Source: a virus. Taken from it: a DNA stretch of 45,536 bases. Each line of letters begins with the position of its first letter. Position 1 is the first letter of the stretch. Shown here in pieces: positions 6,635 through 40,098 of the stretch. Location: positions 1 through 45,536 of the IMG/VR virus record IMGVR_UViG_3300027857_000028; one strand, given 5' to 3'. The notes below the pieces were generated by a model. The model was not told where the DNA came from, made no database searches, and saw only the letters and a list, made by a program, of their open reading frames with translations. Position numbers and translations under genes: made by a program.

Positions 6635-6669
6635 CGATGGGTTTGTCCCATTCCGACCTCCCACTTACC

Positions 6670-6839
6670 GACACTGTACTGACAACTGACAACTTTCTAT
6701 ATATCCACTATATAAGCAATATAAAGTGAAAAAGTAAATCAATTAGTATGTTAAGGAGAGTATAAGGGTATATTTATGCGCGTTTTGCGTTATAGGGTAT
6801 ATATAGGAAACTGACGATCAGAACCTCAGTTCGTCAGTA
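6670..6839. repeat. AT-rich long inverted repeat, copy A
   Basis: A 170-bp element, far more AT-rich than the rest of the window, whose reverse complement is at 22565-22734. Bases 6738-6839 match exactly; five differences fall in 6723-6738. It contains the tandem pair CTGACAACTGACAAC at the outer end. At the inner end is the hyphenated palindrome CTGACGA (6811-6817) with TCGTCAG (6831-6837). In between are many TATA-like strings (CTATATATCC, TATAGGGTATATATAGG). It fills the gap between the divergent primase and tail operons (6570-6899), where I see no gene. Candidate roles: bidirectional promoter/operator, replication origin, or recombination site. Confidence 0.93.
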
Positions 6840-6899
6840 TTTGGGAGCGACAAAAACTTAACATGCGAAAAGTGGATTAATCCCGGAAACCGCGCTAGC

Positions 6900-7292
6900 A
6901 TGCGGTTTATGGACACTTTGGCAATTGATGTGAGTCTGTGGGACTTGGACGTCGACAGCCGTGGCAACATCCGCACGGTCGGCGACGCCACGCCCCAAAG
7001 CGATCAAACCGGACCGGGCATGCGGCTAGCCCAGGACGTCGCCACCCGTGTGCAGGCGTGGCGCGGCGAGGTGTACTTTGACACGACGCAGGGCATCGAC
7101 TACCCGGTCCACTTCGGCGGTCCGCCCAATCTGTCCTTGCTGCAGTCGGTGTTCAACACCGAAGCCCTCAAGGTGCCGCTGTGCGCGACCGCGCTGGCGC
7201 AGTTCACCTTCGCGGCGGGCGCCAAACGGGTCATCGGCGGCACGCTAACCGTGTCCGACATCGCCGGCAACGGCGGCCAGGTGTCGCTATGA
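6900..7292 (+). CDS. Baseplate wedge protein, gp25/gpW-like
   Basis: A 130-residue protein with the gp25-like signature MRLAQDVATRVQAWRGEVYF followed by DTTQGIDYPVHFG. This is the region in which family members present an Arg and a Gly-Ile-Asp-Tyr segment. In contractile injection systems gp25 links the wedge to the sheath. The start ATG 6900 has GGAAA twelve bases upstream; an in-frame ATG at 6909 is an alternative. It is the first gene of the rightward tail block after inverted-repeat copy A and overlaps the next gene by four bases. Confidence 0.75.
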   Translation: MRFMDTLAIDVSLWDLDVDSRGNIRTVGDATPQSDQTGPGMRLAQDVATRVQAWRGEVYFDTTQGIDYPVHFGGPPNLSLLQSVFNTEALKVPLCATALAQFTFAAGAKRVIGGTLTVSDIAGNGGQVSL

Positions 7293-7612
7293 GCTATCAG
7301 GTCATCCCGCTGGCTGCCCTAGCCATCCAACAGTTCTCGTGTGTGCTGGATAACCAAACCGCGCAGTTCACTTTGACCACGACTGAGGATGGCCTGTTCG
7401 CGGACATCGTCTACAACGGCGTGAGTATTGCCGCCGGGCGGATCTGCCTAGATCGTACGAATCTCAATTCGTCACCTTACACCGGGTTGCCCCATGGGCT
7501 TTTCTTCGTCGATCTGCTAGGCACGTCTGATCCTGTGTACACCGGTTTCGGCACGCAGTATCTGTTGCTTTATGGCGATCCGGACGCGAACGGCGGAGTG
7601 ACCTATCCATGA
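7289..7612 (+). CDS. Baseplate plug-like protein (DUF6983 type)
   Basis: A 107-residue protein with a start overlapping the wedge gene stop (ATGA). Its layout (LDNQTAQFTLTTT, IVYNGVSIAAGRICLDRTNL, then GLFFVDLLGTSDP and QYLLLYGDPD) fits the small beta-rich baseplate plug proteins found beside gp25 in simple myovirus baseplates. In that role it would close the tube below the hub. The family name is assigned by eye. A strong terminator follows at 7720. Confidence 0.55.
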   Translation: MSYQVIPLAALAIQQFSCVLDNQTAQFTLTTTEDGLFADIVYNGVSIAAGRICLDRTNLNSSPYTGLPHGLFFVDLLGTSDPVYTGFGTQYLLLYGDPDANGGVTYP

Positions 7613-7719
7613 GCGATCGCGATGGTATTTGACAACGATACGCAGGACGGTTAGGGTATTTGCGTCTCCCGTGGTGCGGTGCGACGTGGCTTGCGCGGTT
7701 GTGGTGGCTGTGGCAAGCG

Positions 7720-7752
7720 AAAGGGCGAGTCTACGGACTCGCCCTTTTTCTT
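7720..7752 (+). terminator. Rho-independent terminator
   Basis: Stem AAAGGGCGAGTC (7720-7731), loop TACG, and the exact complement GACTCGCCCTTT (7736-7747), followed by a T-rich run. It separates the wedge/plug pair from the RMF-like gene, in the middle of what otherwise reads as one tail operon. Bases 7613-7719 hold no gene that I can see. Confidence 0.85.
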
Positions 7753-7836
7753 CCAGCCACTTGACAATGCCATAAGAGGTTCCTAATATCGCTCCCACGC
7801 ACACAAATGGCTTCGGTCAGCACTGAGGAAACATAG

Positions 7837-8022
7837 GTGACAATCGATGATGCATATAGAGCTGGCAAGCGTGTTTTCAGCGAGGGCAAGGGACGTGAAG
7901 ACAATCCCTATGCATGCGACGGAATGATTGAAGCAACAAGGGCATGGCGTGCTGGCTATGACGATGCGGCTAAAACCTTGCTGCCACAGCAACGCTACGC
8001 CATCGACGCCTTCAACGAATGA
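7837..8022 (+). CDS. RMF-like small protein
   Basis: A 61-residue protein starting at GTG 7837 after GAGGAAACATAG. The spaced elements AYRAGKRVFSEGKG, DNPY and TRAWRAGYDDA resemble ribosome modulation factor and its phage/plasmid relatives, where a Gly-rich helix and an NPY motif are followed by a W-x-x-G-(Y/F) motif. RMF dimerises and silences ribosomes in bacteria. In a phage it could alter host translation or be a small structural adaptor; nothing here decides. It stands alone, with a terminator before it and a gap of about 100 bases after it. Confidence 0.55.
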   Translation: MTIDDAYRAGKRVFSEGKGREDNPYACDGMIEATRAWRAGYDDAAKTLLPQQRYAIDAFNE

Positions 8023-8121
8023 CCGCCTGTGCATGCCGCCACACCCGGCGGCATGCACAGGCGATCCGTCCGCTACACAAGCATCACACCCAAGCACCGA
8101 GGATAGCGCCATGTACATCGA

Positions 8122-8277
8122 TTGGATCACCCGCCATCGTCGCCCAAAAGTCGCATCCGCCGCTGGTGGTATCGTCATAGCACAAGTGTGCTGTTCGCAA
8201 CGCTGCTGTTATGCTGCGGCTTGTTAGGCGCACTGATCGCGGCGATGCTGCTTCACTACGCTCATGTGTGTTTGTGA
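8122..8277 (+). CDS. Possible small membrane protein, TTG start
   Basis: A 51-residue frame with a basic N-terminal part (SRIRRWWYRHS) and one strong hydrophobic helix (VLFATLLLCCGLLGALIAAM). Its TGA stop merges with the GAGGAA ribosome binding site of the next gene, as expected in an operon. The only start near the front is TTG 8122, with AGGA too far upstream, so the start is uncertain and GTG at about 8191 could be used instead. A 38-codon frame from ATG 8111 overlaps it but has no recognisable character. Confidence 0.35.
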   Translation: MDHPPSSPKSRIRRWWYRHSTSVLFATLLLCCGLLGALIAAMLLHYAHVCL

Positions 8278-8286
8278 GGAACTGTC

Positions 8287-8475
8287 ATGATCGCCATACA
8301 CGTAACAATTCAGGACGCAATCAACGCGCTACCAAAAGGCGACGTGCTTGAGCCGGTCGACGCGGCCGCAGCGGTTTACGCACGCACGAACGTCGACTAC
8401 GAAAGCGACATCGTGCGCATGCGTCTTGTTTTTGCACTAGACGCATTCATCAATGCTCAAGACGACGCGGGTTGA
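8287..8475 (+). CDS. Hypothetical protein, 62 aa
   Basis: Starts at ATG 8287 after GAGGAACTGTC. The small soluble protein (IQDAINALPKGDVLEP, then YARTNVDYESDIVRMRL) has no family I recognise. It overlaps the first tail chaperone gene by 23 bases, which suggests coupled translation. Confidence 0.5.
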   Translation: MIAIHVTIQDAINALPKGDVLEPVDAAAAVYARTNVDYESDIVRMRLVFALDAFINAQDDAG

Positions 8476-9025
8476 TCTGACCGGCCGCGACGCCGGCCGC
8501 ACGGTCGAACTGACCGAGCTGCCGGCGCTCGTTGCGGACCGCTGCGCTCGTGCCGCCCTGTTGGCGATCGACCAGCCACCCGAGGGCGGCGTGGTGGCAC
8601 TCGCGCTCAAACACACGGACGACATTCGGGCGCTCGGCGAGCGTGGCTCGCTGATGCTGTTGCCCTTTGTGGACGGGGTACTGACGAGCGGCGAGCGGCT
8701 AGATGTCGTCCACCATCTCAAGGACTGGCGCAGCATTTCGCGGTTGCAGCAAGCCGCCCTCTTGCTTCACGTGGGCTTTCTCATTGGCCGCGAGACGGTA
8801 GAAATTCCCATCTCCATGCAGATCGCCGCGATCAAGGCAGGCGACCCCGACACGCGGGCGGCCTTCTGCGCGCCTCATATCGCGGCGGTGTTACACTCCA
8901 AGCAAGCCACCTACCGCGAGCTGGAAACCGTGTTGAGCACTGAAGACGTGTTCAACCTGGTCGAACTGGTCAACGTTGAGGCGATCCATGCTTGGCGCAC
9001 CTTCCAACAAGCCCCCAAGGATTAA
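8453..9025 (+). CDS. Tail assembly chaperone-like protein
   Basis: A 190-residue, mostly helical protein between the tube genes and the tape measure on the circular map, the usual place for tail assembly chaperones. The segment LPALVADRCARAALLAIDQ and the later LPFVDGVL fit the small helical chaperones of simple myoviruses. No frameshift link to the next gene is seen: the two frames are separated by a stop and three bases. The start ATG 8453 has a weak ribosome binding site and overlaps the upstream gene. Called from position and character. Confidence 0.55.
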   Translation: MLKTTRVDLTGRDAGRTVELTELPALVADRCARAALLAIDQPPEGGVVALALKHTDDIRALGERGSLMLLPFVDGVLTSGERLDVVHHLKDWRSISRLQQAALLLHVGFLIGRETVEIPISMQIAAIKAGDPDTRAAFCAPHIAAVLHSKQATYRELETVLSTEDVFNLVELVNVEAIHAWRTFQQAPKD

Positions 9026-9028
9026 CCG

Positions 9029-9442
9029 ATGGAAGACACGAAAACCACCACTCTCTATGGCACCTACGGACGCGACCAGGCCAAGCGCTTCGAGGTGGCC
9101 GAAGTTGACCCGCTAGCCCTGTCGGGCTATGTGCTGCGGCTGCTGTCTGCGCTCAAGGTAGCCAGCTACGAAGCGCTTTTGCTGGCGCTGACGCCTAAAA
9201 AGGAAGGCGATCCAGAAAACGACATCGAAGCTATCGATGCGGTACTGCAGATCCTGCAGGGCGCCGATCCGGATGCTGTACACAAACTGGTCACCGAAGC
9301 GCTGCGCTACGTGCGCATCGCGCCAGATCCGCAACATCCCGAGGCATGGCGGCCTTTACTTCCCACTGACATTCGCGAAATCCGTACCCTTGGGGATATT
9401 CTGATGGCGTTCGTCAAGCTGAACTTCGACATCGGAACTTAA
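9029..9442 (+). CDS. Second tail assembly chaperone-like protein
   Basis: A 137-residue acidic, helical protein (ALSGYVLRLLSALKVASYEA, then EAIDAVLQILQGADPDAVHK) directly before a baseplate gene and the tape measure. Short helical proteins in this place usually load the tape measure during tail assembly. It starts three bases after the stop of its neighbour. Called from position and composition; no catalytic motif. Confidence 0.5.
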   Translation: MEDTKTTTLYGTYGRDQAKRFEVAEVDPLALSGYVLRLLSALKVASYEALLLALTPKKEGDPENDIEAIDAVLQILQGADPDAVHKLVTEALRYVRIAPDPQHPEAWRPLLPTDIREIRTLGDILMAFVKLNFDIGT

Positions 9443-9444
9443 CC

Positions 9445-10038
9445 ATGACCGCATCGGTGGCAGCCTTCAATGCCTTGGCGCTTATCGCGTCAAACATTCC
9501 TAGCCTGAATCCACCGACGCCCATTTATGCGGTGGTGATGTCCGATACGCTGATCCCACTGACCGTGCCATCGTCGTGGGGAGAGTTCTCGCCGCGCTAC
9601 GAAACGCAGATTTCCGACTATCCGGTCGAGACGGGCGCGTTCGCCCTTTACAACAAGGTGCGCCGGCCGCAGACGGTTACCGTATCGCTGACCAAAACGG
9701 GCAGCGACATCGCCCGTTTTTCATGGCTGGCGGCGATTCGCCAGCAAGAAGCGAGCAACCCCTTGCAGCTCTACACGCTCATTTCGCCGCAGGACGTTTT
9801 TGTCGACTATACCCTTACGGGTTTGTCGTACGAGACGCGGCCTGACCGCGGCAGCAACATATTGCGCCTGCAGCTGACTTTCACGCAGGTAACCCAAATC
9901 GATTCCAGCGCAGGCGGCTACACCAACCCGCTGGAAGCCTTCGCAGGGCCGGTGCAACAGCTGGGCCAGCTGTTCACGTCCGCCGCCAGCCTCCCGCAAA
10001 CCGCGCTCGCCAATGCCAGCGCCTATATCACGGGGTGA
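9445..10038 (+). CDS. Baseplate/tail tube-end protein (hub-adaptor-like)
   Basis: A 197-residue beta-rich protein. The pattern VSDTL-like opening, GEFSPRYETQISDYPVETGA, LYNKVRRPQTVTVSL, then PLQLYTLISPQDVFVDYTL fits phage baseplate proteins that adapt tube to hub. These share a Y-N-K-V segment after an ETG turn. The C-terminal 35 residues are Gln/Ala-rich. It lies two bases after the chaperone gene and three before the tape measure. Family assignment is tentative. Confidence 0.5.
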   Translation: MTASVAAFNALALIASNIPSLNPPTPIYAVVMSDTLIPLTVPSSWGEFSPRYETQISDYPVETGAFALYNKVRRPQTVTVSLTKTGSDIARFSWLAAIRQQEASNPLQLYTLISPQDVFVDYTLTGLSYETRPDRGSNILRLQLTFTQVTQIDSSAGGYTNPLEAFAGPVQQLGQLFTSAASLPQTALANASAYITG

Positions 10039-10041
10039 CCT

Positions 10042-11901
10042 ATGGCTGATGCAACGGTTGTCGATGAACTTGTAGTTCAGCTCCGGCTGGATGCAGAGCA
10101 ATACAAGAAGGCAGAAAAGCAGGTTGAAGATCAGGCCAACCGGATCGAGACGAAACAAAAAGACCGTGATGTAAAGCGCAAGCGCCGCGATGAAGACCAG
10201 CAGAAGCGCTGGCGGACACTCACGACCGAAGCCAAAGCCTTTACGCGCACCATGGGCGCCGTTGTGCTCGCCGTGGCGGGGCTTGGCGCCGCTGTCGTGG
10301 GCTCTCTCACTTCGCTCAATGCATTTGAGCTAGGTCTGCGTCGGCAAGGCGTCAGCACGGGACTATCTAATCGTGAGCTGCAAGCGTGGGGCTCTACAGC
10401 CCGCCGCCTGGGCGCCGATGCAGACGCCGGAGCAGACGCCATCGCCAATCTGGCCAAGGAACAGAAGCAGTTTCGTTTGACAGGCGAAGCGCCGACCTTG
10501 CAGGCATTCGCGCGTGCTGGTATTCGCGTAACGCCCGAGATGGCCATTCCCGACATCCTGGCCAACGCGCAGCAGGTCTACCGCGGCGCAGGACCGGCCC
10601 AACGCCAACAGCTCGAATCGACACTGGCGGCGCAAGGCGTGTCGCCGGATCTGATTCTGATGATCAAGTCGGAGAAAGATGCGCGGCAGGAGTACACCCG
10701 ATCGCTGGCGGAAGCGTCGACAGAAAATCGCAAGGCGCTCGATGCCATGTCCGACGCGCTGGCCGCCATGAAGGCCAGCACGATCAGCCTTGCCAATACG
10801 CTGGCAACGGCGCTGCAGCCGGTGACCGAACGCGTGGCCAGCTGGCTATCGCAAGCTGCGGTAGCCGCCAGCGACTTCACGGACAAGGTGATGGCAGCGG
10901 GCGGCGGCGTTAACGGTTTCCTGACCGTGCTCGATCAGCAGGCACCGGTGCTGTCGGCGGCGCTGCGCGAGTTGGCGGACATCGTGGACGTCGTGCGACT
11001 CGGTCTTACCAAGATCGCCGAAGTCATCGGCACTATCACGAATGTCGGCGGGGGCTGGGCAGACAGTTTCAATGCGCGCGTACAGGCAGAGATTGCCAAG
11101 CCCCGGCATAATCCATTGTGGGGTGTCGTCAATACGCTGCAAAATGTGGGCAAGACTGTCGCAGGCACGGCTAAGAATTTGTGGCAGCAAACTGTCGAAG
11201 AGGCCCACACCGAAGGATTCAACATTCAGGCGCCAGCGCCCGCGGCTTCGACGCCTGCCGCGCCTATCGCCGCACCTGCGCCTGGGCAAGTCGCGTCTAT
11301 CGCCGCACCTGCGCCTGGGCAAGCCGCGCCTTCCAATGCCCTAGCTCTCACGGGCAAGTTGGTGCAGAGCGGGCTCAGCGTGCCGCAGGCGGCCGCCGTG
11401 GTGGCTAACTGGCAGGCGGAATCGGGGCTCAAACCTTCGTCGTTCAATCCAGCGGGCGGCGGCACGGGCGCGCGAGGTTTGGCCAACTGGCGCGGTGCGC
11501 GCACGGCGGCCTTCGTGGCGCGTTACGGAGTGACTCCGGACAAGGCGACGATTGATCAGCAAGTGCAATTCATGCTGACCGATCCTTACGAACGGACCAA
11601 ACTGACAGAAGCCTTCACCGGTGGCGGAAACAACGCTGCGGCATTGGGTGAAGCCTATTCGCGCATCTATGAAGCGCATGGCGACGCCGCAGAAGACGCA
11701 TTGCGTGGTCAACGTGCCGCCACCTTGGCCGCGCAATACCGCAACACCTTGGGAAATCCGAGCGTGAACGGTTCGACAGACGGCAATGGCAATACGTTCT
11801 CCATCCAGTCCATGACGGTCATCGCCAATACGCCCAACGAGCTGGCGAGCGGTATCGCGCGCCAATCGGGAGTCAGTCCCTATAACTCGGCGGTGCGCTG
11901 A
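10042..11901 (+). CDS. Tape measure protein with C-terminal tail-lysozyme-like domain
   Basis: A 619-residue protein that sets tail length. Residues 10-65 are a charged helix (EDQANRIETKQKDRDVKRK), followed by a hydrophobic segment (MGAVVLAVAGLGAAVVGSL, about 70-90) and long Ala-rich helices, as in tape measures. After an Ala/Pro linker with an 11-residue repeat (about 395-430) comes a phage tail lysozyme-like domain. In it VVANWQAESGLKPSSFNPAG carries the likely catalytic Glu, followed by GLANWRGAR. The enzyme part would open peptidoglycan during injection. It is shorter than many tape measures, so a short tail is expected. The gene overlaps the hub gene at the stop/start. Confidence 0.85.
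   Translation: MADATVVDELVVQLRLDAEQYKKAEKQVEDQANRIETKQKDRDVKRKRRDEDQQKRWRTLTTEAKAFTRTMGAVVLAVAGLGAAVVGSLTSLNAFELGLRRQGVSTGLSNRELQAWGSTARRLGADADAGADAIANLAKEQKQFRLTGEAPTLQAFARAGIRVTPEMAIPDILANAQQVYRGAGPAQRQQLESTLAAQGVSPDLILMIKSEKDARQEYTRSLAEASTENRKALDAMSDALAAMKASTISLANTLATALQPVTERVASWLSQAAVAASDFTDKVMAAGGGVNGFLTVLDQQAPVLSAALRELADIVDVVRLGLTKIAEVIGTITNVGGGWADSFNARVQAEIAKPRHNPLWGVVNTLQNVGKTVAGTAKNLWQQTVEEAHTEGFNIQAPAPAASTPAAPIAAPAPGQVASIAAPAPGQAAPSNALALTGKLVQSGLSVPQAAAVVANWQAESGLKPSSFNPAGGGTGARGLANWRGARTAAFVARYGVTPDKATIDQQVQFMLTDPYERTKLTEAFTGGGNNAAALGEAYSRIYEAHGDAAEDALRGQRAATLAAQYRNTLGNPSVNGSTDGNGNTFSIQSMTVIANTPNELASGIARQSGVSPYNSAVR
11264..11323 (+). repeat. 33-bp in-frame tandem duplication in the tape measure linker
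   Basis: A 27-base string beginning CTATCGCCGCACCTGCGCCT occurs at 11264-11290 and again at 11297-11323. The period is 33 bases, or 11 residues. It lengthens the Ala/Pro linker before the lysozyme domain. Confidence 0.85.
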
Positions 11902-12824
11902 TGCCTTTCAATCCTTTTGTCGCGCGCATCGCTCAAGTGGTCGTGTCAGTGACACGGCCGGATGCCAACGGGAACGCCGCGCAGCAAACCTATACGTTCC
12001 AGCAGCATCGCATGCGCATCCAAGTGCGGCAGGGCGGTAAGCAATTCGGTAATGCCAAGCTGGAAATTTATGGCGTGCCGTTGTCGGTTATGAACCAGAT
12101 TGCACGCCTTTGGCTGGAAGCTCTGACGCCGCAAGGTACGGATACGGTACAGGTCAATGTGTGGGATGGCTCGCAGTTTGTTCCGTTCTTCCAGGGCGTC
12201 ATCACCTGGTCGGCTGTCAACGCCTCACGCATGCCGCATGTGTTTCTGGATATCGAAGCGAACGCGGGCATGGCCTTAACCCTGCAACCGACAAGCCCGT
12301 ACAGCACTCCCGGCGGCGTGACGCTCAAAAGTGCCTTGCAGGCCATCGCGCAGCCTGCCGGGTTCCAAGTGGACTATGCAGCCAGTGCACCGACATATCA
12401 GCTTTCGGCTGTACGTGTCACGGGCGCCCCGCTCGATCAGATCGGGCAACTCATGGCGCATTACCCCGATCTAACGTGGATGCCCAATCTGCAGCGTTTG
12501 CAGGTACGTTCCGCGCTAGCCCCGCTTGGCACCGATCAGATCGACATTTCCTCCGACACGGGCTTGCAGGGTTATCCCGTCTATTCGACTAGCAGTTTGC
12601 AACTCGCTACGCTATTCAACCCGCTTATCACACCCGGCGCCGCTCTTAATGTAGTGACGCCTGAATTTGATTTCGTCACGCGTACGCTATGGGTCGCTTC
12701 AGTGCTAGCGCACACATTGGAAGCCAATCTGCCTGGCGGTCAATGGACGACTCAGCTCGCCGCGAACTCATTTGGTGCAAAAGGCAACAACAACGGACAA
12801 CCCCTAGGAGGTTCCAGTGGCTAG
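11901..12824 (+). CDS. Baseplate hub protein (gpD/gp27-like)
   Basis: A 307-residue protein with the hub layout. An N-terminal beta domain (RMRIQVRQGGKQFGNAKLEI) is followed by VNVWDGSQFVPFFQGVITWS, an LQAIAQPAGFQVDYA helix, and LDQIGQLMAHYPDLTWMPN. This order is typical of gpD/gp27 relatives, which trimerise at the tube end and carry the spike. ATG 11901 shares its first base with the tape measure stop. The gene ends eight bases inside the next small frame. Confidence 0.7.
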   Translation: MPFNPFVARIAQVVVSVTRPDANGNAAQQTYTFQQHRMRIQVRQGGKQFGNAKLEIYGVPLSVMNQIARLWLEALTPQGTDTVQVNVWDGSQFVPFFQGVITWSAVNASRMPHVFLDIEANAGMALTLQPTSPYSTPGGVTLKSALQAIAQPAGFQVDYAASAPTYQLSAVRVTGAPLDQIGQLMAHYPDLTWMPNLQRLQVRSALAPLGTDQIDISSDTGLQGYPVYSTSSLQLATLFNPLITPGAALNVVTPEFDFVTRTLWVASVLAHTLEANLPGGQWTTQLAANSFGAKGNNNGQPLGGSSG

Positions 12825-12993
12825 CACGGTAGCGCAGTACCTGGCGACACTCGCACACCCTATCTATCCGCAGCGATCCCGCATCATCTACGCGCCAGAC
12901 TTGGCCACTGCGCAAGCGTATGCCGCAGCCGCCATCAAAGGCACGCTTTGGGCCATCGTGAGCGTGGCGCTCTTTTCGCCACAACCCCAGTAG
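12817..12993 (+). CDS. Small hypothetical tail-operon protein, 58 aa
   Basis: GTG 12817 follows AGGAGG at ideal spacing, one of the best ribosome binding sites in the window. The frame runs 58 codons to TAG 12991-12993. The protein is Ala/Tyr-rich (STVAQYLATLAHPIYPQRSR) with a short hydrophobic end (AIKGTLWAIVSVALFSPQPQ), possibly one weak membrane or packing helix. It sits between hub and spike. No family recognised. Confidence 0.6.
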   Translation: MASTVAQYLATLAHPIYPQRSRIIYAPDLATAQAYAAAAIKGTLWAIVSVALFSPQPQ

Positions 12994-13002
12994 ACTTGCA
13001 TC

Positions 13003-13713
13003 ATGAGCGTGACCACACTTACCCCTGCGCCCAAATACAACAGTCCGTTCGAAGCACAATTCGACCCGGATCAAGCCCAGCTGTTCATCATTTCTAAACT
13101 CTTGCGGGGCTTGCATACCGCTGACTTGGTGAAGGTATTGGCGGTTTACCCTACATCGGGGAAGGTGGGCTTTGTCGACGTACAGCCGCTGGTGTTAGAC
13201 CAGGACACCAACGGCGTGGTAATCGCTCAAACGCCCATCTACAAGATCCCCTATTTCCAGCTGCAAGGCGGTAACTCTGCCGTCATCTTGGCGCCTGTCA
13301 TAGGCGATATCGGTCTAGCCGTCTTTGCCGAGCGCGACATCACCAATGTGATTGCTACGCAGAAAGAAGGTGCAGCACCAACGGCCCGGACCTACAACAC
13401 GGCCGATGGACTCTATATCGGCGGCGTGCTCAATCCTGACCCAACCCAGTGGGTGAAATTCAATCCGGCGGGCGGGATCGACATCAAATCGACCGGCACG
13501 TTGACGCTAGAAGCCGCCACGACTATTACCATGAGTGCGCCCAATGGCATCACTCAGACAACCGGATCGGGTTCTTGGCAAATGACCGCTAGCGGCATTA
13601 CGACCAACCTAACCATCAACGCGCCCGATGTCACTTTGCCGCGCGGTAGCGTTAACAACCACGTGCACTTTGTGCCGGCCGCGCCGGGTACGTCCAACAC
13701 TTATACCGGGTAG
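13003..13713 (+). CDS. Baseplate spike protein (Gp138/gpV-like)
   Basis: A 236-residue spike. The N-terminal OB-like part (VKVLAVYPTSGKVGFVDVQP, then PYFQLQGGNSAVILAPVIGD) matches the Gp138/gpV type. It is followed by repeated beta turns (GTLTLEAATTITMSAPNGIT) of a triple beta helix. The tip NNHVHFVPAAPGT carries the H-x-H pair that binds an iron ion in P2 gpV and phi92 gp138 spikes. It would pierce the outer membrane. It starts nine bases after the small gene upstream. Confidence 0.8.
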   Translation: MSVTTLTPAPKYNSPFEAQFDPDQAQLFIISKLLRGLHTADLVKVLAVYPTSGKVGFVDVQPLVLDQDTNGVVIAQTPIYKIPYFQLQGGNSAVILAPVIGDIGLAVFAERDITNVIATQKEGAAPTARTYNTADGLYIGGVLNPDPTQWVKFNPAGGIDIKSTGTLTLEAATTITMSAPNGITQTTGSGSWQMTASGITTNLTINAPDVTLPRGSVNNHVHFVPAAPGTSNTYTG

Positions 13714-13723
13714 AATCCTCGCC

Positions 13724-14992: not shown

Positions 14993-15675
14993 TGAGCCAA
15001 TACCTCGGCAAGACCGTCATGAAGCAATACAGCAATAGCGCTACATTGCTGGCGCTGTTGGCCGCCTTCGACCAATGGGTTGATGTGTCCAAATTCAGCG
15101 ATGCGTTTTTGCTCAATGTGTGGGACATATCCACTGCACAGGACTTTGGCTTAGACATTTGGGGCCGCATCCTCGGGCAGTCGCGCTATATACAGATTGC
15201 GCAAACGCCCGGCGACAACTTTGGTTGGAACATCAACGCGCATCCTGGTACGCAATGGAAACCCTGGAGCCAGGCGCCCTGGTATGGCGGCGCAGCGGCC
15301 GGCACGACTGCCTTTCCGCTGCCTAACGCCTACTATCGCCAACTGTTGTTGGTGAAGGCAGCAGCCAATATTGCCAGCTCGGACTGTCCGTCGATCAACG
15401 CGCTCATGCGCTCGATGTTCGGTAATCGTGGCCGCTGTTACGTAGGTTACGATCCGGCCAACCCAATGCACATTGGCTATCATTTCGAGTTCTTTCCGAC
15501 GCCCGTAGAAAAGTCCATCATCCAATCGGGATTGTTTCCTCAACCTGCCGGCACCACAGCAGAGTATATTTACGAAACGCTGACCTACTCGCCGTTCGGC
15601 TTCGCTGGCGCCAATCGCGGTGCCGATCCGGCCGCCGTGACAGGTTGGAGTCAACACCCGTTCTATCAGCCATAA
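14992..15675 (+). CDS. gpI-like baseplate protein (DUF2612 type)
   Basis: A 227-residue protein following gpJ, as gpI does. The segment STAQDFGLDIWGRILGQSR (LDxWGxILGxxR) is the hallmark of DUF2612-type proteins that join gpJ to the tail fibre. The middle is rich in Trp and Tyr (GWNINAHPGTQWKPWSQAPW), and NAYYRQLLLVKAAANIASS continues the family pattern. ATG 14992 overlaps the upstream stop. Confidence 0.8.
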   Translation: MSQYLGKTVMKQYSNSATLLALLAAFDQWVDVSKFSDAFLLNVWDISTAQDFGLDIWGRILGQSRYIQIAQTPGDNFGWNINAHPGTQWKPWSQAPWYGGAAAGTTAFPLPNAYYRQLLLVKAAANIASSDCPSINALMRSMFGNRGRCYVGYDPANPMHIGYHFEFFPTPVEKSIIQSGLFPQPAGTTAEYIYETLTYSPFGFAGANRGADPAAVTGWSQHPFYQP

Positions 15676-15684
15676 GGGCCCGCC

Positions 15685-17094: not shown

Positions 17095-17100
17095 TATTGC

Positions 17101-17129
17101 AAAGCCCAGTGCTTACTGCACTGGGCTTT
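17101..17129. terminator. Bidirectional terminator between tail fibre and Rz
   Basis: Perfect 12-bp stem AAAGCCCAGTGC (17101-17112) with GCACTGGGCTTT (17118-17129) and a five-base loop. It lies between convergent genes. The loop bases TTA (17113-17115) are the stop codon of the leftward Rz gene. Confidence 0.88.
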
Positions 17130-17652
17130 GTTGTCGTTCGGCCTCTAGCAGCGCTTGTAAGGCGATTATTTGCTGATCGAGGACGTGTTCGCGTTGGTCG
17201 GCTTCATCACCGGCTCGAACAGCAGCGATTGAATCAGCGAGGCGCTGTGTAGCGGCACTGGCGGTGGCAGCATCAGCGATGCGGGCACGGGCGGCAACGA
17301 CGGGCATTTGACCGCTACATACTGCGGCGGATTCATCGCGCAGCCGGACAGTGCCAGCAGCGACAGCAGGAGCAAGGTGTTCAGCAAAAGACGGTTGCGG
17401 CGCATGGATGGCTTCCTCATATTTGGCGGCTAGTGCGTTGAACGCGTTGCGTTGGTTGTCTTCGGTCGCACGTGTCTGTAACGCCTGTTCAGCCGCCGCA
17501 GCGGTTTGAACTGCCTTGGCGGCGTCCCAACGCGTTTGCACGCTCAAAGCGCCTTCGTGATGCCCCCACATAAACAGCGCAGCTAGCGCTGCCAATACGA
17601 GCAGCACGCCCGCTAGCTTGGCGTAGAGGCCGGTTAGTAAAGTGAAAGGCAT
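17113..17652 (-). CDS. Rz: Spanin inner-membrane subunit (Rz-like)
   Basis: A 179-residue protein with one N-terminal membrane helix (about residues 8-28, LYAKLAGVLLVLAALAALF). A long periplasmic helical region follows (QTAAAAEQALQTRATEDNQR, then LLEAERQQSPVQ). This is the layout of i-spanin Rz, which with the lipoprotein Rz1 fuses the membranes at the end of lysis. ATG 17652 follows TTGGAG; the reading frame extends ten codons further up without a better site. The stop lies in the terminator loop. The Rz1 gene is wholly inside it in another frame. Confidence 0.85.
   Translation of the reverse strand: MPFTLLTGLYAKLAGVLLVLAALAALFMWGHHEGALSVQTRWDAAKAVQTAAAAEQALQTRATEDNQRNAFNALAAKYEEAIHAPQPSFAEHLAPAVAAGTVRLRDESAAVCSGQMPVVAARARIADAATASAATQRLADSIAAVRAGDEADQREHVLDQQIIALQALLEAERQQSPVQ
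17166..17405 (-). CDS. Rz1: Spanin outer-membrane lipoprotein (Rz1-like), nested in Rz
   Basis: A 79-residue frame inside the Rz gene. It has a lipoprotein signal LLLSLLALSGC (lipobox LSGC, Cys at about residue 22). The mature part is rich in Pro and Ser (SLPPVPASLMLPPPVP), the mark of Rz1. The start ATG 17405 has AGGAAG seven bases upstream; ATG 17420 is the alternative. Fully embedded Rz1 genes are known in lambda and others. It pairs with the surrounding Rz. Confidence 0.85.
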   Translation of the reverse strand: MRRNRLLLNTLLLLSLLALSGCAMNPPQYVAVKCPSLPPVPASLMLPPPVPLHSASLIQSLLFEPVMKPTNANTSSISK

Positions 17653-17678
17653 GTCATTTGCTCCAATAGAGATAGGGC

Positions 17679-17930
17679 TCAAGGCTTGTGTTCCGTGATG
17701 GCCTTGACGGCAATCGCCGCGCCTAATGCCGCGATGACCAGCGAGAGCCCTTCGCCATAATGGTCGTGGTCGAAGGGCACTTTGTTCACGATGACATTCC
17801 AGGCGCTGAGCGCCAGATATTCAATACCGCCAATGAAAGCCAAGATACCGCCAACGATACGTACCACGTCAGGCGTCGCGTTGTCACGCTCGCTGAAGAG
17901 ATGCAGCAATAGCTGACGGATCTTTTCCAT
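17679..17930 (-). CDS. Holin-like membrane protein, 83 aa
   Basis: Two hydrophobic segments (about residues 25-45, VRIVGGILAFIGGIEYLAL, and 63-78, LSLVIAALGAAIAVKAIT). They are separated by a charged loop with FDHDHYGEG, and both ends are charged. Size, two membrane passes and position directly before Rz fit a class II-type holin that releases the endolysin. Three other membrane or Ala/Pro-rich proteins lie between it and the endolysin, so which of them is the actual holin is not certain. Confidence 0.6.
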   Translation of the reverse strand: MEKIRQLLLHLFSERDNATPDVVRIVGGILAFIGGIEYLALSAWNVIVNKVPFDHDHYGEGLSLVIAALGAAIAVKAITEHKP

Positions 17931-17936
17931 ATGGGC

Positions 17937-18320
17937 TTACTTCGGCGGGGGCGTCAGGATGGTGATGCTATCCGGCGCGGGTTCGACATTACCTGTCACC
18001 GCTGCGGCGGCGTCGTGCGACCCTTCGGCAGCCGGAGCTGGTACGGGAGCCGGGATTTCAGCCACGACGACCGGAGAAGCCTCGGCAGCCGCCTCTGCGC
18101 CCTGAGCCACGATTTTGACAGCCATTGCGGTAGCGTCGATCTGTGCCTGTGCAAAGTCGCGCAGCTGTTCGAACGAATCGAAGCGGTAACCTTCGTGGCC
18201 CAGCAAGTGCAGGAAGTCCTCGCCTACGCGCGCAGCGAGGCTATGCTCTGTCTGCGCTACAGTGTTGGTGCCCGCAGTCTTAGCCTGCGATGGCTTAGGA
18301 GTCAGTACGATGATGCTCAT
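17937..18320 (-). CDS. Ala/Pro-rich hypothetical protein of the lysis block, 127 aa
   Basis: The N-terminal half is globular and helical (AARVGEDFLHLLGHEGYRFD, then SFEQLRDFAQAQIDATAMAV). The second half is Ala/Pro/Val-rich (VVVAEIPAPVPAPAAEGS). The two ends carry similar tags, IIVLTPKPSQ near the start and ITILTPPPK at the stop. No signal or membrane helix is seen. It lies six bases from the holin-like gene in the lysis operon. Function unknown; it could be a virion-associated or lysis-regulating protein. Confidence 0.55.
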   Translation of the reverse strand: MSIIVLTPKPSQAKTAGTNTVAQTEHSLAARVGEDFLHLLGHEGYRFDSFEQLRDFAQAQIDATAMAVKIVAQGAEAAAEASPVVVAEIPAPVPAPAAEGSHDAAAAVTGNVEPAPDSITILTPPPK

Positions 18321-18323
18321 GGG

Positions 18324-18650
18324 CTATTTTCCTGTGGTTTTGTTGAGTTGTGGGGCCATCATGTAAATGGCATCTACATGGTCTTTCATGTTCAGGTATA
18401 GCATGCCGCCACCGACCAATGCCACGATAGTGATAACGGTCATCAGCCCGCACAGCACGACCGAAAACAGTGATAGCCACAGCATCCGTTGCGTTTTACT
18501 ATCGTCGACACTGACGGATATGTTGCCCGTCTGTGCCGCGACACCTGATGGCCAACCCGAAGGATGTCGCTCTCGGAAATGCTCCATCGTTGCCTGCAAG
18601 CTACGAGCGGTAGTGATCCATTCGCGCGCCAATTCGGGATCTAGGTCCAT
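18324..18650 (-). CDS. Single-TM membrane protein of the lysis block, 108 aa
   Basis: An N-terminal soluble part (about 55 residues, AREWITTARSLQATMEHF), a hydrophobic helix (about 58-85, LWLSLFSVVLCGLMTVITIV and onward), and a short charged tail. It could be an antiholin, a second holin or a lysis regulator. It starts at ATG 18650 and ends three bases before the Ala/Pro-rich gene. No family recognised. Confidence 0.55.
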   Translation of the reverse strand: MDLDPELAREWITTARSLQATMEHFRERHPSGWPSGVAAQTGNISVSVDDSKTQRMLWLSLFSVVLCGLMTVITIVALVGGGMLYLNMKDHVDAIYMMAPQLNKTTGK

Positions 18651-18663
18651 GCGATGCCCCTGG

Positions 18664-18912
18664 TTAACTGATGTTGAGATGGCCAGCGATACGATGTGTC
18701 AACTGCGTCAGTCTCTGCAATTCGCTATACATCCGGTCGAGCAGTTCTTTCCCGCCATCGTGAGCAGCCATGCGGGTCTCTAACTCACTGACGCGGGTTT
18801 CGAGAAAATCGACGCGCTTGTCCTGACGAATGATCCATGTGCGAATGATCCAGGCACTTGCCGCCGCCGCCGCGCCGATAGCCCATAGCACAATCGGGTC
18901 GTTCAACGTCAT
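18664..18912 (-). CDS. Membrane-anchored coiled-coil protein, 82 aa (possible antiholin)
   Basis: One N-terminal membrane helix (PIVLWAIGAAAAASAWIIR, about residues 6-25), then a heptad-like helix (VDFLETRVSELETRMAAH and ELLDRMYSELQRL). The start overlaps the endolysin stop by four bases (ATGA). Small proteins of this shape beside endolysins are often annotated as holins or lysis regulators (DUF2730-like). The assignment rests on topology and place. Confidence 0.55.
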   Translation of the reverse strand: MTLNDPIVLWAIGAAAAASAWIIRTWIIRQDKRVDFLETRVSELETRMAAHDGGKELLDRMYSELQRLTQLTHRIAGHLNIS

Positions 18913-19379
18913 GCGAGTGTCCCTCCCGCGGTCACATAGGCGACACGCAAGGCGCCGATATGGTTCTCATGCTGGCCATAGCCCGCACCCGGCAAACTAG
19001 CCCATATGTTTGACACTTTCGCCACGGCCTGGTCAAACCGTCCCGCTTGAATATCGGCAATGGCGCCTCGTTCACGAATCTGCTGAATCGCAACGCGGTC
19101 CTGACTGACGGGGCCGAAATCGGTCAGTTGTAGTTGGGATTTATAGGGCAGCCACCAACGATGCAGCAATTGGTAGCGCCCGGCTGCTGTTGAGTTCAGT
19201 TGCGCATTGAAGATATTCGGATGGTCGTCGTAACTGGAAAACAATTGGCCGCCTACAAGCACGTTGTAGCCGTCGTCGCTACTGGCCAGTAGTGCAGCAC
19301 CAATTTCTGACATGGCGAGCATGTCGAGAAAGGCACAGACATTGATGCCGCCGGCTTGGTCAGGCGATATGCAAGGCAT
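18909..19379 (-). CDS. Endolysin, lambda R-like lytic transglycosylase
   Basis: A 156-residue enzyme that cuts the glycan strands of peptidoglycan. It follows the lambda R pattern closely: FLDMLAMSEIG (catalytic Glu25), YNVLVGGQLFSSYDDHP, STAAGRYQLLHRWWLPYK, SQDRVAIQQIRERGA and SNIWASLPGAGYGQHE. There is no signal peptide, so a holin is needed for release. The gene is 48 bases downstream of the RusA-like gene and begins a run of overlapping lysis genes. ATG 19379 has GGAACG upstream. Confidence 0.92.
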   Translation of the reverse strand: MPCISPDQAGGINVCAFLDMLAMSEIGAALLASSDDGYNVLVGGQLFSSYDDHPNIFNAQLNSTAAGRYQLLHRWWLPYKSQLQLTDFGPVSQDRVAIQQIRERGAIADIQAGRFDQAVAKVSNIWASLPGAGYGQHENHIGALRVAYVTAGGTLA

Positions 19380-19407
19380 GGGCGGCGTTCCGTAGGGGCA
19401 TGGCTAG

Positions 19408-19413
19408 AGTATA
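19408..19413 (-). promoter_or_regulatory. Possible -10 element ahead of the lysis genes
   Basis: On the minus strand TATACT lies in the short gap between RusA and endolysin. The best upstream box is TTGCGC at a long 19-bp spacing, so the promoter is weak or depends on an activator. It would allow late expression of lysis genes apart from the recombination genes upstream. Confidence 0.3.
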
Positions 19414-19427
19414 ACGTGACAAGTACC

Positions 19428-19802
19428 TTATGGCGCAACCTCGCGGATAGCCAGTTCCACACGACCTTCGCCGCACGGTGCGCCGCGCACGATCATCAGG
19501 CAGTCAATCTGCGAGTCATCGGCCCATATGCGCTGTTCGGTAAGTGTGTCAAACATCACTTTCTCGCGGTTGCAGATGTCCCACACCGGCCCGATCGACT
19601 CAGGTGCGTGCAACACTTTCCATACCACTAGACGCCCGGTCAGTGTGTGTACCGGGCCATTTGGCAGCGCCGCCGCCAGCCGTTTCTTGTATTGCCGGGC
19701 CGCCTTTGACAGCAGAATGCGGCCCAGCACCGCTCGCCATATATTGTTGGTGGATGGTGGCCAAGGCAGTGTCAGCAGTATCGTGCGGCCTTGATAGCTC
19801 AC
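19428..19802 (-). CDS. rusA: RusA-like Holliday junction resolvase, altered active site
   Basis: A 124-residue protein with the RusA fold signature: LPWPPSTNNIWR at the N-terminus, then WDICNREKVMFDTLTEQRIW and ADDSQID. RusA resolves Holliday junctions during phage recombination and packaging. E. coli RusA uses Asp70, Asp72 and Asp91. Here the D-x-D pair reads D-I-C, so the middle Asp is Cys (codon TGC), while the last Asp and the Lys are kept. Activity may be weak or changed. It overlaps the Cys-rich gene upstream by four bases. Confidence 0.82.
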   Translation of the reverse strand: MSYQGRTILLTLPWPPSTNNIWRAVLGRILLSKAARQYKKRLAAALPNGPVHTLTGRLVVWKVLHAPESIGPVWDICNREKVMFDTLTEQRIWADDSQIDCLMIVRGAPCGEGRVELAIREVAP

Positions 19803-20050
19803 GTGAGCGACGACTCAGTAGGCCGATCGTCGAAAGATCGCAAGAAATCGATCACACAATAGGAGCAAATGTCGAGCGAATAATCAGCAGGTCCGCTCGG
19901 CAATGTGACTTTCACCTCAACCGTTACATTCTGGCCCAGCTCTGTTACGCAAGGGCGGAACCATTTGGTCAGCTCAACGCCTGCCCAATTCCTAGCCGTG
20001 CCTTTTATTTCTTCACCGCAGCAGTCGCAAAAAGTGTGAGTTTCTTTCAC
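19799..20050 (-). CDS. Small Cys-pair (zinc-ribbon-like) protein, 83 aa
   Basis: GTG 20050 follows AAGGAGACGCCACC. CDCCGEEIKG near residue 8 and CSYCVIDFL near residue 62 form two Cys pairs (C-x-x-C type), likely a zinc-ribbon. Between them is a beta-rich segment (NVTVEVKVTLPSG). It lies after a strong terminator and overlaps RusA by four bases. No specific family; DNA or protein binding is plausible only. Confidence 0.6.
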   Translation of the reverse strand: MKETHTFCDCCGEEIKGTARNWAGVELTKWFRPCVTELGQNVTVEVKVTLPSGPADYSLDICSYCVIDFLRSFDDRPTESSLT

Positions 20051-20068
20051 GGTGGCGTCTCCTTAAGA

Positions 20069-20092
20069 ACAGGGCGCCCGAAGGCGCCCTGT
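20069..20092 (-). terminator. Leftward hairpin terminator after the ssDNA-binding gene
   Basis: Perfect 10-bp stem ACAGGGCGCC (20069-20078) and GGCGCCCTGT (20083-20092). In the leftward direction the loop is TTCG, a stable tetraloop, followed by TTCTT. It separates the ssDNA-binding gene from the RusA/lysis genes; the short T-run may allow read-through. Confidence 0.75.
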
Positions 20093-20110
20093 GTTTCACG
20101 TGGAACATGA

Positions 20111-20755
20111 TCAAGCAAACGGATTAGCCGTCGTGGGTTTGGCTGACTGCTGGAACGGATCAGCCGATCGGTTGCCTGACGTACCAGCGTTGGTCGTACT
20201 CGCGCTAGCCGCCTGTGCGGCCGTCGCCTGTGCGGCCGCTACGTTCGGGTCCACATAGCTAGCGAATGCGTTAGCCGCCGTGTTGCCGATGTTGAGACGC
20301 TCGCCGTCACTCACAGCCATGACGCCACTGAGGTCGAACGAGATACCGCCGCCTTCGTTGGGCCAGTAAAACGCCGAAATCGCCGCACGCACTTTTTTGC
20401 CTGCATAGAACTTCACGCGAATGGCTGCTTGCTGCGTGTCTTGGCTCAGCTGGTTACCGCCTTCGTCAGCCAGATATGGCGGAAACTGCGTGGAAGCGCG
20501 GATGATGAACCAGTCGCCCGGCACGCCCGGAATAGGCTTGTCGAGTTGCTGATTACGGCGCACGCCGACCTTCAGTCCAGTGAGCGAGCCGCCGGGAGCG
20601 ACAGCAGCAGAGAGGGCTTGCAAGTCGCCAGCGGCGGCCGGAGGAAACGCGAGCACGGAATAGAACTGCAGCGGCTTGCCAGCTTTCTTGCGGTTAGGCT
20701 GCGCCTGGGCCAATGCGTGATGCGTAAGGATTGCGATGTGATCGGTGATAGACAT
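20111..20755 (-). CDS. Single-stranded DNA-binding-like protein (DUF2815 type)
   Basis: A 214-residue protein. LQFYSVLAFPPAAAGDLQAL, LTGLKVGVRRNQQLDKPIPG, DWFIIRASTQFPPY and RVKFYAGKKVRAAISAFYWP match the order of the DUF2815/gp2.5-like ssDNA-binding proteins, an OB fold with aromatic strands. The C-terminal 50 residues are an Ala/Thr-rich flexible tail, as expected for an SSB. It probably coats ssDNA in replication and recombination. ATG 20755 follows GGAG. A structured 190-base leader with inverted repeats precedes it. Confidence 0.72.
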   Translation of the reverse strand: MSITDHIAILTHHALAQAQPNRKKAGKPLQFYSVLAFPPAAAGDLQALSAAVAPGGSLTGLKVGVRRNQQLDKPIPGVPGDWFIIRASTQFPPYLADEGGNQLSQDTQQAAIRVKFYAGKKVRAAISAFYWPNEGGGISFDLSGVMAVSDGERLNIGNTAANAFASYVDPNVAAAQATAAQAASASTTNAGTSGNRSADPFQQSAKPTTANPFA

Positions 20756-20794
20756 TCGATAGACTCCGAAGTTTGAGTATTGCGGTTAGAAGGT

Positions 20795-20874
20795 GTGGCA
20801 GCACTGGTGCGCGGGAATGACGTCAGGGGTTACGTCCTATAATCGGCAGCCAGTGCTGCCACGATTGTGGCAGC
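20795..20874. other. Inverted-repeat element in the leader of the ssDNA-binding gene
   Basis: GTGGCAGCACTGG (20795-20807) is the exact reverse complement of CCAGTGCTGCCAC (20850-20862). The end of the second arm also forms a hairpin GCTGCCAC-GATT-GTGGCAGC (20855-20874). The 8-mer GTGGCAGC/GCTGCCAC thus occurs three times, and the two hairpins exclude each other. A perfect TATAAT (20838-20843, plus strand) lies between the arms without a clear -35. The 190-base gap 20756-20944 holds no gene. Confidence 0.7.
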
Positions 20875-20944
20875 GCGAATCGGTGGTCGCAATCGCGGGA
20901 GGGTTTCAATTGCTGTAGTCGATCCGCGTCGCCACGGTGAAACG

Positions 20945-21271
20945 TTATGCGATGTTTTCGGGCTTGTCAAGTGCTAGTAAGCGATCAATTTCAGCGGCAA
21001 GCAATGCGCCAGCCTTCTCCAACTCGCGAATACGCGAAGCGTTGGAGTTGTCACCGCCCGGTTTCCACCATGCGAAAGCCCATGGCCAATAGCTAGGTTT
21101 TACATGCCGCAGTGCGTCACGTACTTCATCACTGCTTCCCGCCTGGATGACGTAGCAGACCGCGGCCATATTCAGATCGCCGGGCGTGCCTCGTGCGTCA
21201 TGTGCGGCGCCCCAACCTTCGACGTCGATTTGACGTTGGCGCTCGCGCGCAATACGTTCCGCTCCATTCAT
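20945..21271 (-). CDS. Conserved phage hypothetical protein, 108 aa
   Basis: Begins with ERIARERQRQIDVEGWGAAHD and continues PSYWPWAFAWWKPGGDNSNA, then SRIRELEKAGALLAAEIDRL. This pattern (ERQRQ-x-EGW-x-HD ... WPW-x-WKP ... KAGALLxAEIxR) is common in small phage proteins of unknown function often placed among replication genes. It overlaps the nuclease gene upstream by four bases. Function unknown. Confidence 0.7.
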   Translation of the reverse strand: MNGAERIARERQRQIDVEGWGAAHDARGTPGDLNMAAVCYVIQAGSSDEVRDALRHVKPSYWPWAFAWWKPGGDNSNASRIRELEKAGALLAAEIDRLLALDKPENIA

Positions 21272-22464
21272 GGCGTCACCTTCTGCGCGTATTTGTCGAA
21301 TGTGGCCGCGACAGTCAGCGGGTCGGCCGCTTCGGTGGCCAAGATGGTCTTGGCACCATTGGCACGTTTGACCAGCTCGTCATGTATATCAGCTGGAATC
21401 AAGTGCAGCACGTCGCCCAAGGCGGCTGGAGTCAGCGCATCGATATGTCCTAACGCCAGTAAGGTTAGCACGGCGGCTTTTGGGTTCGCCCACATCTTGC
21501 GGCCTGTGGCCACTTTCACTACCAAGCCAGCGGTCCCCGCATCGGCCATTTTGCTGATACGTTCTTCCACGTCTTCCCAGAAGTTTTTGAAAGCGGTACG
21601 TACAGCCCACAGAGCAATCAGTTCTGCATCGGACAGGCTATGCAATGTTGCAGGTGTCACATACGCCTGCAAAGCAGTCTTGCCGGCATGATTCACCGCC
21701 GAACAGCGCAGCGCCTTGGCGGCCTTGCAGTAGCGGCAATGGCTGCCCGGTACGGGTGGCGTGCTCGGATCGGCAAACGCCGCTTCGACAGCCCGTGCCT
21801 CCGCCAGCAGCTTGGCACGTTCGCGATGTAACCATGCAGCATCGACGAGCAGTACTTGCCCAGGCTCGCCGTGGATGCGCCGAGGCTGGTAGATGGCTAG
21901 TCCTAATGACGCTGGCTCCAAATTGAACGTATCTGCAGCGGCCACCAGGTAGCCGGCTACCTGCTCGTTGGGCGCGTCGGCAGTACCCACGTCCACTTCG
22001 CCGAAGCCGTATTTGTAGTCCACGCCGCCGAGACGCTTGATGCTCGGAAACCACAGTAAGAGATCGGCCGTGCCGAACAAAGGGGGCGAAATGCCCTGAA
22101 CTTCGACGCGTCGTTCGAGGACGATGTGCACATCGGGGTAGTTACCCACCAAGGTGGCGATAAATGCGGCGTAGTCCATGCCGTGATGACGAAGCTTATC
22201 GTTCCACTGCGTAACCGTCAGGCCTTTGAGGTCAAGTCCCGCAGGTGGTTGGTATTCGCCGGGATCGCCCGACCGTGCGCCTTCCAGACCGAATCGCTGG
22301 CGCACGTAGAACTCGGCCACCTTGTGCGCGATGGCGCCTTCTTCTGCTTCTGGCCCCGACTCGTCGGGCAGCCCTTCGGACAACGTTACTGATACGGCGC
22401 ACTTGGACCAACGTGAGCGGGCAGACATGGACAGCTTGCTATGAAGCGCTTGAGGTTCACTCAT
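21268..22464 (-). CDS. PD-(D/E)XK nuclease, DUF2800 type (Cas4/RecB-like)
   Basis: A 398-residue nuclease. The active-site order is visible: AHKVAEFYV (N-terminal His helix), PPLFGTADLLLWF near residue 131 (catalytic Asp), VDYKYGFGEVDVG near residue 148 (D-x-K), then NEQVAGYLVAA. CRYCKAAKALRC near residue 240 supplies Cys residues for an iron-sulfur cluster, as in Cas4/AddB-like enzymes. It likely acts as an exonuclease with the ssDNA-binding protein. I choose ATG 22464 (AAAGG upstream) over the frame start at 22506, which lies in the promoter. First gene of the leftward recombination unit. Confidence 0.8.
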   Translation of the reverse strand: MSEPQALHSKLSMSARSRWSKCAVSVTLSEGLPDESGPEAEEGAIAHKVAEFYVRQRFGLEGARSGDPGEYQPPAGLDLKGLTVTQWNDKLRHHGMDYAAFIATLVGNYPDVHIVLERRVEVQGISPPLFGTADLLLWFPSIKRLGGVDYKYGFGEVDVGTADAPNEQVAGYLVAAADTFNLEPASLGLAIYQPRRIHGEPGQVLLVDAAWLHRERAKLLAEARAVEAAFADPSTPPVPGSHCRYCKAAKALRCSAVNHAGKTALQAYVTPATLHSLSDAELIALWAVRTAFKNFWEDVEERISKMADAGTAGLVVKVATGRKMWANPKAAVLTLLALGHIDALTPAALGDVLHLIPADIHDELVKRANGAKTILATEAADPLTVAATFDKYAQKVTP

Positions 22465-22496
22465 GATTGGGCCTTTGTGGTGGATATGTGCGCGGA

Positions 22497-22525
22497 ACGT
22501 TAGCACAATTTGGGGCGAACGTCAA
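22497..22525 (-). promoter_or_regulatory. Sigma70-like promoter for the nuclease/recombination unit
   Basis: On the minus strand TTGACG (22525-22520), 17-bp spacer, TAACGT (22502-22497). It is followed by TCCACCACAAAGG before ATG 22464. It lies between inverted-repeat copy B and the gene, outside the repeat. Confidence 0.65.
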
Positions 22526-22564
22526 TTAAATGAATTTCCCGAACGTCAGCTTCGTGAAAGGTGT

Positions 22565-22734
22565 TACTGACGAACTGAGGTTCTGATCGTCAGTTTCCTA
22601 TATATACCCTATAACGCAAAACGCGCATAAATATACCCTTATACTCTCCTTAACATACTAATTGATACACTTTTCTATTTTATATTGCTTATATAGTGGA
22701 TATATAGAAAGTTGTCAGTTGTCAGTACAGTGTC
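22565..22734. repeat. AT-rich long inverted repeat, copy B
   Basis: Reverse complement of 6670-6839, with positions paired as x and 29404 minus x. Bases 22565-22666 are identical to copy A. Weaker similarity extends outward to about 22765 (GGAATGGAACAAACCC against the copy A flank). It lies between the divergent nuclease and terminase units (22465-22788), where no other gene is seen. The CTGACGA/TCGTCAG palindrome faces the nuclease; the CTGACAA tandem faces the terminase. Confidence 0.93.
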
Positions 22735-22788
22735 TGCAGGGGGAGAGGCGGAATGGAACAAACCCTGGCGTTAAGTTAAAGTCGCCCC

Positions 22789-40044: not shown

Positions 40045-40098
40045 GAGCGAGTAGGCTGTAAGCGGCGCCCGCATCATCTCGCCGCAAAGGAGCCCATT

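Follow-up and report, generated by a model that had tools for sequence, protein, structure and literature searches.

The DNA analysed here, referred to as the window, is a 45,536-nucleotide stretch of a virus record (IMG/VR IMGVR_UViG_3300027857_000028) and belongs to a soil phage. It contains an AT-rich element in two inverted copies, each lying between gene clusters that diverge. This locus raises the question of what such an element does, and of whether the block between its copies can change orientation.

The two-copy element and its setting

The two arms are found both by BLASTN and by a repeat finder, at 6639-6839 (copy A, minus strand) and 22565-22765 (copy B, plus strand). They are 201-202 nt long, 93-94% complementary (E 5e-83) and separated by a spacer of 15,725 nt, and the block enclosed by them makes up about a third of the phage genome. 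A sequence-only reading of this DNA had counted by hand a repeat of 170 bp with five mismatches and 102 identical bp. That count is correct for the core (6670-6839 and 22565-22734), in which the five substitutions are all clustered in one short stretch and the longest identical run is 102 bp; the total extent had been set slightly short, as a further 31 bp at the end facing primase and TerS are also similar, less strongly than the core. The two copies had also been called the only AT-rich blocks of the genome, which is essentially right: over 120 nt both have an AT content of 72.5%, and the next-ranked genome window has 60%. The two elements are the top two AT-rich windows in all six complete genomes checked.

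The GC skew of the window was uninformative. An Rfam search at copy A found no known RNA element, a tRNA search found none, and single-strand folding of the element is just mildly above that of shuffled sequences (z -1.7). The window has two other repetitive features. Positions 1-163 and 45374-45536 form a 163-bp direct repeat with one mismatch, indicating a circular contig or an overlap of assembly ends, and a very GC-rich tandem array of GGC-type units lies at 2685-2884, within a coding region of unknown function.

We name the ends of the element x and y. In copy A x is on the left and y on the right, in copy B the reverse. Copy A separates a leftward primase gene from a rightward baseplate wedge gene, and copy B separates a leftward exonuclease gene from a small rightward gene followed by the large terminase subunit (TerL). 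The x end points towards primase at A and towards the gene in the position of the small terminase subunit (TerS) at B, the y end towards baseplate at A and exonuclease at B; this arrangement of diverging clusters, with one repeat end facing both primase and terminase, had been read correctly from the sequence.

The gene to the left of copy A (4074-6569, minus strand) encodes a VapE/D5-type primase-helicase, the candidate initiator. Its probable start is the ATG at 6569; the longest-ORF start at 6692 is probably wrong, because relatives fit the former. Its best match both in sequence (7pds, E 2e-31) and in fold (E 8e-14, TM about 0.5 on the target) is PriRep1 of SaPI5, the fold match being limited to the helicase part and the predicted model only moderately confident. 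In this model the C-terminal end contains a winged-helix-like segment. The baseplate wedge gene (6900-7292, plus strand) is the first gene of the rightward cluster within the block. The first gene of the leftward cluster within the block encodes a PD-(D/E)XK exonuclease (21268-22506, minus strand). One operon beside copy B contains this gene together with those for a Gp2.5-like single-stranded DNA-binding and annealing protein (20111-20755, minus strand) and a RusA-like Holliday junction resolvase (19428-19802, minus strand), both putative partners in recombination. The resolvase was identified through PHROGs; the Pfam RusA family (PF05866) has no match in the window. On the other side of copy B, the TerS-position gene (22789-23265, plus strand) belongs to a PHROG of unknown function and is called TerS by position only. 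It is followed by the TerL gene (23262-24785, plus strand).

The element consists of an AT-rich core flanked by short, lineage-specific iterons, mostly in inverted order. In copy A the x end carries two copies of ACTGACAA (6678-6692, plus strand) and the y end an inverted pair of ACTGACGA (6810-6838); in copy B the inverted pair of ACTGACGA lies at 22566-22594 and the two copies of ACTGACAA at 22712-22726 (minus strand). The element is nearly palindromic, since one iteron is present at both edges in inverted sets, and it is able to sit in either orientation. The window iteron, ACTGACRA, has 8 of its 11 sites within the two elements, where the expectation for the whole genome is 2.2.

The element in related phages

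The nearest kin of the window are Naesvirus and Kantovirinae phages, and its TerL and primase are 58-65% and 51-59% identical to those of isolates. The DNA of copy A has no match in the phage collection searched. When the genomes of Bcep781, Bcep1, KPhi1 and XapPhi1 were compared with themselves, each showed a two-copy repeat in the two corresponding intergenic regions. Targeted comparisons extended this to PhiXhv-28 and to most of the near-complete metagenomic relatives, so that a two-copy element occupies exactly these sites in nearly every relative in which both divergent control regions could be compared. Examination of Naesvirus-type relatives at both loci had been proposed as a check on the repeat; it returned the element at the same two sites.

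Copies within one genome are usually 90-99% alike, and between lineages they cannot be aligned. This pattern supports the suggestion that the copies are kept identical. Weaker pairs occur in 44735_30 (64 bp at 80%) and 44259 (514 bp at 81%). In the Bcep and KPhi1 groups site-specific differences between the copies are still present, and homogenisation is therefore slower than the splits within these groups.

The inverted repeat of the window is not a constant feature. The copies are inverted in the window, KPhi1, 11628, 14647, 2974786762, 44946 and 2974771932. They are direct in about half of the relatives: among isolates in the Bcep group, PhiXhv-28 and XapPhi1, and further in 11530, 21076, 29982, 49728, 10399, 44735 and 44259. 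Direct copies are also consistent with a contig pair of sample 32954 judged by eye (L023 and L060) and with the cross-pair of 46535 and 48088, which are 94% identical phages. The element can flip in place: compared with L040, L042 and L056, which like it have the second of the two gene orders described below, the element of L041 is reversed in situ (about 76% over 153 bp, minus strand). Such reversal explains the mixture of direct and inverted pairs.

The iteron changes from lineage to lineage. It is TGACAGAT in the Bcep group, TACGGAGG in 10399 and the 21076 group, GGTGGGA in 44735 and ACAGACG in 44946. 11628 and L059 have a near-perfect terminal inverted repeat. In several genomes the iteron occurs 10-15 times, counted over the genome or the fetched locus, and nearly all of these sites lie within the two elements.

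The most distant relative, the outgroup 30503_128 (primase 41%), has a single copy, located at the primase gene, and none between exonuclease and TerS. The element is thereby linked to the primase, and an origin becomes more likely than an operator serving four promoters.

Some observations on individual relatives may be added. L082 (2974771932_000001) has the second gene order and a primase just 29% alike over a short stretch, and it still has the element in two copies that seem to be inverted, with 74% similarity over 188 bp. In L031 (2974786762_000001) the primase is divided between two open frames, covering residues 3-526 and 535-817, through a frameshift, a sequencing error or the existence of two proteins. 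PhiXhv-28 (L006) has a 41-bp inverted repeat (93%) at both convergent cluster junctions, 13532-13572 and 40065-40105, perhaps a pair of terminators. A search of bacterial genomes for copies of the element yielded one MAG contig only. This 48-kb contig (NZ_CANSMR010000042.1), in a Bradyrhizobium MAG, holds a relative with the second gene order and is a possible hint to the host or a binning error.

Origin or operator

With moderate confidence we propose, from the sequence comparisons, that an iteron-type replication origin is present twice, as the two arms, and that recombination keeps its copies alike. Among the functions suggested earlier, paired replication origins are the best supported. 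SaPI origins contain an AT-rich part, as does the core of the phage element. In SaPI Rep and in Cch2 a C-terminal domain binds the helicase to an iteron origin adjoining its own gene, and helicases related to PriRep1 act likewise on iteron origins next to the genes that encode them (PMC7581432). The phage element likewise places short iterons beside the gene of an initiator-helicase, as do SaPI origins with PriRep and SCCmec with Cch2, and its primase, like SaPI Rep and PriRep, is a D5/VapE-group helicase with a C-terminal winged helix. As in an origin of the SaPI/PriRep type, an AT-rich region is bracketed by short iterons, and these iterons are almost confined to the element. A helicase of the same family adjoins copy A and also the single copy of 30503_128. 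The SaPI origin differs in being present in one copy downstream of rep, whereas the phage element is upstream of the primase gene and doubled. Also unlike the SaPI origin, the phage element has copies about 16 kb apart, is nearly palindromic and appears to serve as a crossover site.

The primase-helicase beside copy A would use its C-terminal winged helix to bind the iterons at either edge of the two copies, and would open the AT-rich core and start bidirectional replication. Near each origin the forks would then run in the same direction as transcription of the four gene clusters. A partial Mantel test on k-mers, which asked whether the iterons vary together with the primase more than with TerL, did not support such a link. 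10399 and the 21076 group, which have TACGGAGG in common, are sisters in the primase tree and stand apart in the TerL tree; this single case is suggestive of co-variation between iteron and primase.

Alternatively, the element could be a shared bidirectional operator or enhancer, at which a phage regulator bound to the iterons co-ordinates four promoters just outside both copies, and the copies would stay alike since one protein reads both. The position of each copy between divergent promoters agrees with this, as does the near-exclusive occurrence of the iterons in the elements. A strict scan for consensus sigma-70 promoters found none in either region of the window. A weak sigma-70-like site for the exonuclease operon (22497-22525, minus strand, TTGACG-17-TAACGT) matches at 8 of 12 positions, no better than shuffled sequences, and lies outside the repeat. 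Several relatives have early sigma-70-like sites at the element edges or outside them, the depositors of phiXaf18 annotated promoters there as well, and a TACACT box stands close to the start codon of many late genes. The AT-rich core itself is probably not a promoter, because the sigma-70-like sites are at or beyond its edges and the TACACT boxes near start codons. The element may nevertheless have a transcriptional role, given the promoter-like sites at its edges in relatives and the phiXaf18 annotations. An operator is, however, rather unlikely as the main explanation: one and the same element end is next to early genes in certain genomes and to late genes in different ones, the single-copy relative retains the element at the primase gene only, and a long AT-rich core would be unnecessary.

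In relatives such as L003, L043, L053 and L071 a TGCGTTACACT box is conserved a few bases ahead of the start codons of the TerS-position and baseplate genes. Such boxes are candidate late promoters that would yield nearly leaderless transcripts.

Two genome layouts

The phages of this family are found in two layouts. Layout I, that of the window, has primase beside baseplate and exonuclease beside TerS; layout II has primase beside exonuclease and baseplate beside TerS, and is equal to an inversion of the block between the elements. Related species show both orientations, and the breakpoints fall at the repeat. The comparison of layouts covered 32 and 33 loci, some of which share a contig. A tape-measure search found 22 isolate records, and every one of them has layout I, judged by tape measure and portal lying on one strand. 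By best estimate the TerL tree requires six layout changes (bootstrap 5-7), at least three of them forced by well-supported branches; the primase tree requires three, two of them forced. Layout II in genomes with direct copies cannot come from misjoining at the repeat, which would delete the block and not invert it. As judged from these trees, the block has been inverted several times in the evolution of the family, so the inversion predicted from the window alone is real on an evolutionary scale.

The crossovers, as read from the gene order around the element, are at or within it, because each of its ends remains beside its own genes and the switch of neighbour falls at its edge. L038 (layout II) is about 79% identical to the window over an aligned 3.8 kb and has the order baseplate-y, x-TerS. 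L127, an exonuclease contig of the same phage type, likewise bears the y end. An alignment of L035 (layout I) with L038 extends from close to the y edge as far as the TerS-position gene (274 bp, 77%); at the y edge exonuclease gives way to baseplate as the neighbour. In 44946 (layout II, inverted copies) x faces primase and TerS and y faces exonuclease and baseplate. It had been predicted that every operon would remain attached to its own control element after inversion, and this holds in the closest pairs of opposite layout.

The origin reading offers an account of these events. A crossover between inverted copies would invert the enclosed block, and homologous recombination by the phage exonuclease, the Gp2.5-like annealing protein and the RusA-like resolvase could both homogenise and invert the copies. 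General homologous recombination by the phage's own enzymes is most simply taken as the mechanism, as no site-specific recombinase was detected. The genome has no PF00239 (serine recombinase) or PF00589 (tyrosine recombinase) match, and a site-specific invertible segment of the Gin/Hin or integrase type was rejected on this ground. If the copies are origins, inversion would be tolerated since every cluster would still read away from an origin, and this rule would explain why both layouts survive.

A stronger form of the idea is active isomerisation, in which the block flips so often that both layouts share one phage population. The inverted copies with 102 bp of identity and the presence of both layouts in the family speak for it. 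So does a case in two samples: in 3300038405 the exonuclease and TerS contigs of one phage type (L127 and L037) end at the same base inside the element, and in 3300039441 a 99.8% identical TerS contig (L038) runs on into baseplate. This is a candidate natural isomer pair, representing a mixture of layouts or an unresolved repeat. Near-identical contigs or isolates compared for layout, however, never differ, so that the coexistence of two isomers in one phage, as earlier proposed, is not supported, and the many genomes with direct copies are unable to invert the block. A search of IMG/VR with the exact core pattern returned two contigs of the L038 phage type and no same-species isomer of the window. 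Active isomerisation is therefore doubtful. The same doubt attaches to a picture in which two identical, nearly palindromic bidirectional origins let the genome flip freely between two isomers within one infection, because after inversion every cluster still points away from an origin; if true, it would be genome-scale phage isomerisation driven by duplicated origins.

Combined origins and control elements occur in several plasmids and phages, and the element could be both; its position between promoters and its origin-like anatomy would fit, but nothing separates this reading from that of an origin only, and we think it unlikely. A recent chance duplication or assembly artefact is conceivable, since the window is a metagenomic contig whose ends overlap by 163 bp, but it is dismissed by the E value of 5e-83 and by isolates, sequenced independently, that carry the two-copy element at these sites.

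Returning to the proposed duplicated origins, other systems offer partial parallels. Satellite phage P4 has a primase-helicase, alpha, and shares its iterons between two cis sites far apart, ori1 and crr, the latter described as a helper site. The phage family resembles it, as these sites are described, in combining one primase-helicase with two distant cis sites; we know of no block inversion in P4. In herpes simplex virus inverted repeats carry origins and give genome isomers by inversion of the segment between them. The likeness lies in origin copies (putative in the phages) within inverted repeats and inversion of the intervening segment; the phages are unrelated to that virus, their repeats are about 200 bp, and their layouts are seen between relatives. 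The closest parallels are Naesvirus, Kantovirinae and their relatives (Bcep781, KPhi1, XapPhi1), which have the same genome plan and two-copy element as the window.

A word search of open papers on the phage family found no inversion, rearrangement or origin of replication, though the Bcep781 genome paper may mention the repeat. The parts are of known kinds: an iteron origin, a D5/VapE initiator and homologous recombination at inverted repeats. The combination of duplicated, recombining, origin-like elements that yield two layouts in a lytic phage family appears to be new, and brings together in a single small genome the duplication of putative origins, their concerted evolution and the inversion of a block. 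It provides origin candidates at sequence level for a widespread lytic family of soil- and plant-associated phages for which no published origin was found, and the element accounts for the two genome layouts of the family.
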